From NCBI RefSeq assembly GCF_030848495.1, contig NZ_JAVDDT010000001.1, positions 124,001 to 188,000 on the forward strand: a DNA stretch of 64,000 nt, written 5' to 3'. The translations under genes and the position numbers were made by a program. The notes under the pieces were generated by a model. That model saw only the letters and a list, made by a program, of their open reading frames with translations. It did not search any database and was not told the DNA's origin. Numbering within the stretch: position 1 is the first letter of the stretch; each line of letters opens with the position of its first letter. Positions 10,051-12,241 of this stretch are shown here, one piece after another. Source of the stretch: Natronospira bacteriovora (GTDB lineage: Bacteria; Pseudomonadota; Gammaproteobacteria; Natronospirales; Natronospiraceae).

Positions 10051-10232
10051 CGTTGTCGTTGTCGTTGTCGTTGTCGTTGTCGTTGTCGTTGTCGGATTTT
10101 AATCTTCTACGAGCAACAAACGAAAAGCGGAACCCTTAAAGCCCACACGACATTGGGGCATTCTTTTAGCTCACTGCTCGTCGCTGCTTGAAAAAACCCG
10201 ACAACGACTACGACTACGACTACGACTACGAC
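10051..10232. repeat. Hexanucleotide-armed hairpin element, copy 1
   Basis: Left arm: seven perfect CGTTGT units at 10051-10092. Right arm, in inverted orientation: CGACAA then CGACTA units at 10199-10232. Each arm is joined to a G/C-T-rich junction (CGGATTTT on the left, AAAAAACCCG on the right). The roughly 105-base core has TACGAGC near its left side and GCTCACTGCTCGTCGCT near its right side, both echoed in copy 2. The element lies between convergent genes and could fold as a long imperfect hairpin, possibly ending transcription on both strands. Low-complexity frames read through it are artefacts. Confidence 0.8.
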
Positions 10233-10234
10233 TT

Positions 10235-11209
10235 TTAGAAATACTTGCCCAAGCGGGTATGCCAATCAAAATACTTCCGACTGCCCTTGAACCAGGGGCA
10301 GACGCGTCCCTGGAGCTTGACGAGAATGGACTTGAGGTCATTGCTGTCCACCCGGGCCTTGGTAATTGCCACGCGTTCGTCAATCACGGTGACGTAGTTG
10401 CGTCGATAAAGCTCTTCGCAGCCCAGCTTGCACAGGGGCATGGCAATATTCTCGTAATCCAGCCGATCTTCCGTGGTGCAATGCCAGCGATCCTTGATGT
10501 GGGCGGCGATAAGGAACTGCGTCGGGTACTTGTGACCACAGATGGCGCATTCCTCGATGACCTTGCCCCGGAAGAGTTGATCCCGCAGGAAGCCATCTTC
10601 CTTGCGCAGCCGAACACGCCCCTCGGTATCAAGCGGCATGGTGCGATCGATCTCCTTCACCACTTCCTTGTACTCGTCTTCGCTGACGATGGGGAAATAG
10701 ACTGCACTCTCCAGCTGGTAGCCGAACACCACCGGCGCTGCCTTTTCCTCCAGGTGCACTTCGAACCCGGGCCATTCGTAACCTTCCTCCAGACCACAGA
10801 GGCGATTGACGGATTCGCGGGGGATGAACTGATCCTTCACCTCATCCACGAAATAAATACACTCAGGCGTTTGCCCCCGTTCGTCTTCCCCCCAGAGCTC
10901 CCGGGCGAGATCGGGGTTCTTTACCAGGTAGGTGACAATGCCGGACAGAAAGACCATGTCGTCTTTCATGAACAGAACCACGTCACCGCGCTGGAGCTTT
11001 TCCCACTCGGCCTTCTGTTCACCGTCCTTGCCCAGCTTGACACCACCCACACGCGCCATATCACCCGGGTAAATGGTTGCCAGCTCCTCGGCAATCCCCG
11101 TTCCGCGAATGGAACTCAGCTCCGAGAGCATCACCGGGTTCAGCAGGGTCTTCTCCAGATTTTCGCTGGAGTGCCTGTCCGCAGCTGACTGAAAGGCGAT
11201 CTTGGTCAT
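10235..11209 (-). CDS. HNH endonuclease with N-terminal PUA/EVE-like domain
   Basis: 324 residues from ATG 11209 (AGGGG upstream); longer starts lack support. Residues about 30-150 contain RGDVVLFMKDD, VKNPDLARELWGEDERGQTPECIYFVDEV and a GFEV strand, a pattern I associate with PUA/EVE-like DNA-recognition domains that precede nuclease domains. Residues about 220-275 form an HNH nuclease: CAICG, AAHI, YENIAMPLC. Such fusions are predicted modification-dependent restriction enzymes, but this has not been shown for this protein. No methyltransferase or partner is adjacent. It stands alone between two hexanucleotide hairpin elements, which suggests a horizontally gained cargo gene. Confidence 0.75.
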   Translation of the reverse strand: MTKIAFQSAADRHSSENLEKTLLNPVMLSELSSIRGTGIAEELATIYPGDMARVGGVKLGKDGEQKAEWEKLQRGDVVLFMKDDMVFLSGIVTYLVKNPDLARELWGEDERGQTPECIYFVDEVKDQFIPRESVNRLCGLEEGYEWPGFEVHLEEKAAPVVFGYQLESAVYFPIVSEDEYKEVVKEIDRTMPLDTEGRVRLRKEDGFLRDQLFRGKVIEECAICGHKYPTQFLIAAHIKDRWHCTTEDRLDYENIAMPLCKLGCEELYRRNYVTVIDERVAITKARVDSNDLKSILVKLQGRVCPWFKGSRKYFDWHTRLGKYF

Positions 11210-11406
11210 GAGAGCCAACCCCTGGTTATTGTAAGACGCTATGATGGCCTGATTCCCGCCACTGCCGGGAATCCACTTCTTTCGGCTACCCTGAACCCGG
11301 GCGATATTGATTTTTCCGCCGTGAGCCGGGAGCCTATTATACGCACGCAGACGAGAGACTCCACCGCAGGGCTCTCCCCTGCCCGAACCCGGCAACAGGA
11401 GCGACT

Positions 11407-12033
11407 ATGCGATTGATGACAGCCATTCTGTTCCTTGGCATGGCCCTTGGCTCTGCCTGTGCCAGCCCTGGCACCACGGACCCCACGGAGACATCCCCCG
11501 CCACTGTCCCGGCGGCGGATTCCGGTCCGGGACACGCGCTCTGGACAGCGCTTCGCCCCTATTGCGGACGGGCCTTCGAGGGTGAATTGACGTCGGCGCG
11601 TGGCGGCGATGGCAGCTTCCGCGATCAGGCCGTGGTGATGGATATCCGGCATTGCGAGGGCTCCCGCATGCTGATTCCCCTGCATGTGGGCGACGACCAC
11701 TCGCGCACCTGGGTTCTGGAACGGCACGCCTGGGGCGTCACACTCAAGCACCAGCACCGTGATCCGGACGGCAGTGAGCAGCAGATCAATCTCTACGGTG
11801 GCCTGGCCCGCCCGCCGGCTGACGGTACCGAGCTGGCATTTCCGGTGGACGATGAAACCCTGGCCATGCTGCCCAACAGTCGCGGCGGCTACTGGACTAT
11901 TCGGGTGGACGGGGATGTATTCCAGTACCAGGTACAGCGCCGGGGTGTCGATGAGGTATTCCAGCTGACCTTCGACCTGAACACCCCGATTGAACAGCCT
12001 GATGCGCCCTGGGGCTGGGAAAGATTCCGCTAA
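11407..12033 (+). CDS. Hypothetical secreted lipoprotein
   Basis: 208 residues with an export signal ending in a probable lipobox (GSAC, Cys about 18), then a Thr/Pro/Ala-rich linker to about residue 40 and a folded domain of about 165 residues with two cysteines (RPYCGRAFEG, IRHCEGS) and many predicted beta strands. No named family is recognised. GGAG precedes ATG 11407. A TATTAT sequence at 11335-11340 could be its -10 box. It is divergent from the HNH gene and convergent with the AbgT gene. Confidence 0.7.
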   Translation: MRLMTAILFLGMALGSACASPGTTDPTETSPATVPAADSGPGHALWTALRPYCGRAFEGELTSARGGDGSFRDQAVVMDIRHCEGSRMLIPLHVGDDHSRTWVLERHAWGVTLKHQHRDPDGSEQQINLYGGLARPPADGTELAFPVDDETLAMLPNSRGGYWTIRVDGDVFQYQVQRRGVDEVFQLTFDLNTPIEQPDAPWGWERFR

Positions 12034-12067
12034 CCCCCCCACAACTACCAGCGACCCCGGCCCTCCT

Positions 12068-12241
12068 AGTCGTAATCGTTGTCGTAGTCGTAATCGGGTT
12101 TTGGGCAGCTACGAGCTACGAGCAAAAAAGACGACACACTCTTTGTGCGGCCTTTGAGGGTTTTTCCCGTAGCTCGCTGCTCGTCGCTCTTGGCTGCCTA
12201 AAACCCGATTGCGATTACGATTACGACTACGATTACGACTA
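12068..12241. repeat. Hexanucleotide-armed hairpin element, copy 2
   Basis: Left arm 12068-12097 holds five units of the form TNRTCG (TAGTCG, TAATCG, TTGTCG, TAGTCG, TAATCG). Right arm 12206-12241 holds six units whose reverse complement has the same composition. Junctions are CGGGTTTTGGGCAGC and GCTGCCTAAAACCCG, a perfect inverted pair. The core contains TACGAGC twice and GCTCGCTGCTCGTCGCT, matching copy 1. It lies between the convergent lipoprotein and AbgT genes and abuts the AbgT terminator. Confidence 0.82.

Follow-up and report, generated by a model that had tools for sequence, protein, structure and literature searches.

Dispersed palindromes of bacterial genomes have usually been described with fixed ends. 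The REPIN pattern, in which conserved ends at a fixed spacing enclose unrelated centres (PMC3116915), is close to the architecture described here, and REPs are found behind open reading frames (ORFs), including those in convergent or unidirectional settings (PMC3733652). The elements that we analysed in a stretch of 64,000 nucleotides from Natronospira bacteriovora (hereafter the window; C1:124001-188000 within a 3.0-Mb genome of 15 contigs) have ends made of tandem arrays in three hexamer words. They share with REPINs and the GTAG-tagged REPs that occur with RAYT (PMC3116915, PMC3733652) a high copy number, an intergenic location behind ORFs and between convergent ones, inverted conserved ends, a length-conserved spacer and species-specific types. 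In contrast, their ends are variable hexamer arrays followed by GGCWTTT without a GTAG tag, show no compensatory changes and do not flank a RAYT gene. The CGTC-tagged REPs (PMC3733652) are likewise palindromes dispersed behind ORFs without a dedicated transposase; however, these are units of 20-40 bp with a CGTC tag and lack tandem-unit arms.

MITEs are also short, geneless inverted-repeat elements in many copies, and terminal inverted repeats common to the copies were present in the hexamer family. The differences are a variable arm length, the lack of a clear target-site duplication and the lack of a parent transposon in a search for Y1 transposases. The STRR repeats of cyanobacteria are intergenic, lineage-specific tandem units of 6-7 nt, and they form direct arrays, not hairpin arms. 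The tandem heptamers exemplified by TAACTGA in Beggiatoaceae (PMC4679880) have the same unit size, intergenic location and lineage specificity, but they are direct arrays, mostly upstream of start codons, and not paired hairpin arms. A literature search for these hexamer words or for the words of related species returned nothing relevant, and none of the papers in the library searched contained the hexamers, in agreement with the initial annotation, which knew of no standard name.

The two elements of the window

Element 1 (10052-10229, with a partial GAC reaching 10232) is bounded on the left by TC at 10050-10051. Its left arm, (GTTGTC)7, occupies 10052-10093 on the + strand and is followed on the same strand by the left junction GGATTTT (10094-10100; family consensus GGCWTTT), the core words TACGAGC (10108-10114), which is the predominant heptamer unit in the related genome G001, and GCTCGTCGCT (10176-10185), and the right junction AAAACCC (10193-10199). 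The right arm, GACAAC(GACTAC)4GAC, lies at 10200-10232 on the - strand. Element 2 has the same layout: a left arm TAGTC GTAATC GTTGTC GTAGTC GTAATC (12067-12095, +), a left junction GGGTTTT (12096-12102, +), the core words GCTACGAGCTACGAGC (12108-12123, +) and GCTCGTCGCT (12179-12188, +), a right junction AAAACCC (12200-12206, +) and a right arm GATTGC GATTAC GATTAC GACTAC GATTAC GACTA (12207-12241, -), in which GATTGC is one mutated unit. The two inverted elements that had been recognised from the sequence alone are real: we found 21 three-unit hexamer matches in the window versus 0.03 expected from window shuffles, and both elements folded far better than shuffled sequences (z of -5.9 and -12.3). 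One small correction concerns the left junction of element 1, which reads CGGATTTT and not CGGGTTTT; the right one reads AAAACCCG. TACGAGC and GCTCGTCGCT are indeed common to both window copies, which are of a long-loop form, but this core is not universal, as 44 of the 62 paired copies in the genome have only a 20-54-nt loop.

Both elements lie between convergent genes, as originally stated, and the flanking ORF pairs are 9550-10020 (+) and 10235-11212 (-) for element 1 and 11407-12033 (+) and 12276-13865 (-) for element 2. The protein encoded at 10235-11212 showed 82-87% identity in relatives and had no Pfam match. A small hairpin, GGGGCG-GTAA-CGCCCC (10030-10045), stands outside element 1, between it and the stop codon, and an ordinary terminator-like hairpin (12247-12269) lies outside element 2 on its far side. 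The window contains a third family member, an unpaired right arm (GATTAC)6 at 57219-57254 (-), while the match at 35282-35305 is a separate, partnerless GTCGTC/GTCATC array. Rfam matches in the window were limited to the SRP RNA and one tRNA.

A recent family with a common architecture

The initial annotation had suggested a family with inverted arms, and this was borne out genome-wide. It had named a lack of further copies or of a shared core as refuting; instead, at least 62 paired elements were sampled in the genome, in a catalogue built from stretches around pattern matches. The catalogue also has 30 entries that are fragments or arms without a partner, and a few of these probably belong to coding sequence. 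The four-unit GTHRTC pattern gave 302 exact matches in the genome and 0 in the reversed control. Two stricter de novo surveys for tandem-armed hairpins missed degenerate arms; a survey with laxer scoring recovered both window copies and the unit of the relative G002.

The consensus of the short form is TC-(GTHRTC)n-GTAATC-GGCWTTT-N~11-AAAWGCC-GATTAC-(GAYDAC)n-GA, with TC and GA as outer boundaries. The 562 units of the paired elements comprised 257 GTTGTC, 206 GTAATC, 99 GTAGTC and 0 GTTATC, and internal mutant units numbered 7 versus 571 standard ones. The loop-adjacent unit was mostly GTAATC (45/62 left, 50/62 right), the outer units were mostly GTTGTC, and the commonest junctions were GGCTTTT, GGCATTT, GGGTTTT and GGCCTTT. 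Short-form loops have a mode of 27 nt, so the family forms an inverted doublet with a length-conserved spacer. In the 30 shortest elements the centre had a mode of 11 nt and was unrelated between copies (4.08 best matches versus 3.86 shuffled). The long form, about a quarter of the paired copies (17/62), has an 89-128-nt loop, in most cases with TACGAGC/GCTCGTA-type heptamers and partly shared core words. One paired element has a 415-nt loop and is part of composite nested elements.

The composite nested elements measure ~500-650 nt and consist of tandem-arm layers of CTGAGTG, GTHRTC, GTGAATC and GTGAGGC, often around TGTGGGAGCGGC-type palindromes (L097 5000-5800, L111 1500-2250, L114 2140-2633, L116 1560-2290, L124 1650-2450 and 10050-10700). 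Another repeat, ~90 nt long (CGACACAAATGCGT.GGGAACGTATTTGAACTCGCGC...GTCTCATGGATGAGACG), was observed at or inside hexamer arms in L048, L051, L102, L104, L109, L119 and L120. Heptamer or hexamer arms also surround an apparent canonical terminator hairpin in L064 (G001, about 50-150), L289 (G002, 18500-18640) and the core of L051 (G000).

Since the same three words and the TC..GA boundaries occur at many sites, dispersal accounts for the family better than independent origin. Arms of 2 to 12 units, built of slippage-prone tandem units, might have come from unrelated simple-sequence expansions through replication slippage at many sites. However, 62 sites agree in words, junction, boundaries and inverted pairing, related genomes lack the elements, and the inner word recurs in another phylum, all of which makes this extremely unlikely. 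The shared junction and boundaries refute slippage as the origin of the elements; it is the likely cause of the differences in arm length.

Gene order at both window sites is kept in G001 and G002 (same genus) and in G003 (same family), and none of these six orthologous sites carries the element; in G001, the site of element 1 has a hairpin comparable to that at 10030-10045. For 15 more elements, none of 28 orthologous sites in G001 and G002 had two consecutive hexamers. The elements are recent, since none of the 34 orthologous sites examined has them. The strict junction pattern gave 66 matches here and none in the 18 further genomes of the order that were compared. The relatives use other units: arms in G001 are TACGAGC heptamers (59 matches versus 7 here), accompanied by the words TGGCCGTGC/GCACGGCCA, and those in G002 and G003 consist of NNCAAGC units (101 matches in G002 and 38 in G003, versus 15 here). 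Matches of the hexamer pattern in G001 were, where read, direct arrays without an inverted partner and are probably coding.

A relative had a long hairpin of its own at 4/28 orthologous sites versus 5/332 control stop codons (p=0.003), an excess that may be overstated because the controls include spurious ORFs. All three species have hairpins at the L091 site, each a different one, and some of the other long hairpins at orthologs of hexamer sites (L264, L257 and L260 in G001, L279 in G002) have repetitive arms of the CGCCAAGAACGCAAAG, CACAGAGAGCGCAGAGG and CACGAAGGGCACGAAG types. Additionally, the hexamer element at L049 3042-3104 lies about 30 bp ahead of an ORF resembling LexA and its accompanying TACTGTATATACTGACAGT motif; G001 and G002 retain the motif and the ORF and lack the element.

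Genomic position and independence of the two arms

With genes called by a simple codon-usage gene finder, 57 paired elements lay between called genes, of which 21 pairs were convergent, 30 unidirectional and 6 divergent. Convergent settings were enriched (21/57 versus 47/242 gaps of at least 20 bp in the same stretches, p=0.002), against a background that is approximate because the stretches were chosen for having elements. The unidirectional copies were nearer the 3' end in 27/30 cases, and the median distance from the stop codon was 31 bp. A preference for convergent and other 3' ends was thus found, and the location is that of REPs.

This position, the convergent enrichment and the strong folds would suit selected RNA structures, acting as bidirectional terminators or as 3' mRNA-stabilising stem-loops for convergent or operon-end genes. 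Intrinsic terminators are likewise hairpins behind stop codons, but they combine a GC-rich stem with a U-tract, and a T-rich tract (at least 6 T in 12 nt) followed the hairpin foot in just 2 (+ strand) and 3 (- strand) of 61 elements, with no difference on the 3'-facing sides. Ordinary terminators stand beside some elements (L037, L048, L109 and 12247-12269 of the window). The element ends do not consistently abut strong terminator hairpins, doing so in only 9/58 cases.

The initial annotation had read the differing spelling as a sign that structure, rather than sequence, is selected. Comparison of left and right arms in 62 elements did not uphold this: identical units at matched depth amounted to 45.9% for own arms and 44.1% for swapped arms (p=0.33), own arms did not agree significantly in their junction words (p=0.067), and duplex energy was -20.3 for own versus -19.9 for swapped arms (p=0.20). 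The compensatory changes seen across REP hairpins were therefore not found here, and the two arms are drawn independently from the three words. Because own arms match no better than those of other copies, we do not regard pairing as selected, and the occurrence of only three words means that spelling is restricted, the opposite of the free spelling expected under structural selection. The absent covariation and the equal pairing of swapped arms leave the view that structure and not spelling is selected without support. Left and right arms were weakly correlated in length (rho 0.31) and GTTGTC share (rho 0.35), which would also be expected from shared recent history. With neither covariation nor T-rich tracts, with relatives lacking the elements at every orthologous site and with ordinary terminators adjoining some copies, selected RNA structure is an unlikely explanation of the family.

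Candidate movers and counterparts in other phyla

The genome has one Y1/RAYT gene (L128, 1396-1920, -). It is flanked by ~70-bp TGTGGGAGAGGCTTTAGCC REPIN-like palindromes (L128 1319-2023) and not by hexamer arms; gene and palindromes together look like a REPIN system of the ordinary kind, which serves well as a positive control. The search for a gene mobilising the hexamer family, which covered Y1 transposases, found none. Two inverted conserved ends, the length-conserved spacer and the 3' location would fit true REPINs mobilised by a RAYT/IS200-type Y1 transposase, and in the Planctomycetota genome L169 one hexamer hairpin lies ~0.5 kb from a Y1 gene. However, hexamers are missing near the RAYT gene here and, except in L169, in Planctomycetota, where arms occurred at 1/24 Y1 loci of two genomes, about the chance level. 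A GTAG- or CGTC-tagged palindrome of 20-40 bp was also absent: each end has the form (GTHRTC)n-GGCWTTT, the boundaries are TC..GA, and GTAG occurs solely inside the minority unit GTAGTC. We consider RAYT mobilisation quite improbable and do not file the family as a REP, since it lacks the tag, the flanked transposase gene and the compensatory changes by which REPs were judged here.

Target-site duplication was not clear (mean best 0.89 versus 0.62, p=0.085; at least 5 bp in 2/61), with element boundaries that are fuzzy because the units repeat. This result, the unique centres of near-constant length between nearly unmutated independent arms, and the common polarity, with TCGTTG outside and TCGTAA and GGCTTTT inside, would agree with hexamers being laid on each 3' end at both sides of a break, outward to inward, around a centre formed by a local join. 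We found no such enzyme or template, and the shared loops in Planctomycetota and the partly shared long-form core both imply copying, so that addition at breaks is very unlikely.

A scan of genome contigs gave 103 scattered places with the hexamer pattern, of which four had an inverted partner that was convincing. Two of the four are in MAGs of Planctomycetota (L142, L169) and two in MAGs of Desulfobacterales/Desulfobacteraceae (L130, L152). Viral contigs gave 4 single matches and no inverted pair. TCGTNN arrays numbered 173 and 206 in two Planctomycetota genomes versus 0-2 in the reversed control. The innermost unit of the Planctomycetota arms was TCGTAA in 54/58 and the outermost most often TCGTTG. 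GTTGTC and GTAATC are TCGTTG and TCGTAA in another frame, so both phyla have the same words, order and polarity. The Planctomycetota copies, like those of MITEs, have loops and outer flanks in common, which indicates copied units; descent, transfer and convergence are all candidates for the likeness. In the Planctomycetota elements L361-L380, the asymmetric word ACCGCTTCGCTGA breaks one arm, and the outer flanks are GGTTCA.TTCCGGGTTACA / TGTAACCCGGAATTGAACC.

Taken together, the elements are probably recently dispersed, non-autonomous REPIN/MITE-like palindromes with tandem-unit arms. The family proliferated in this lineage after its split from the related species, and the short stretch that follows a stop codon may be the main place where copies are tolerated. 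A copy has two inverted ends, each made of hexamers in varying number and GGCWTTT, and between them either a ~25-nt loop whose centre is unique or a core with heptamer arms. It is apparently the ends that are recognised or copied. A trans-acting enzyme presumably moves the elements, while each arm may independently grow, shrink and change its mix of the three words through tandem-unit turnover; any RNA or terminator role would be a by-product. Against this reading stand the lack of a mobilising gene in the search for Y1 transposases, the lack of a clear target-site duplication, and the nearly unmutated arms around unrelated centres, which suit plain copy-and-paste of whole elements poorly. We give little credence to a further reading, in which such palindromes are mobile or renew themselves and form a class of their own that is not moved by RAYT; their tandem-unit arms would keep a fixed outside-to-inside word order across phyla and be added or renewed unit by unit around a local centre, with each species of one genus having its own unit.

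The new feature is the end design of three-word tandem arrays; otherwise, the family looks like known dispersed palindromes. The units differ in related species, whereas Planctomycetota have the words of this genome in the same order, which raises the question of what might read or renew arms of this kind in more than one phylum. The strong folds without covariation found here also caution against inferring compensation or termination from hairpins behind genes.
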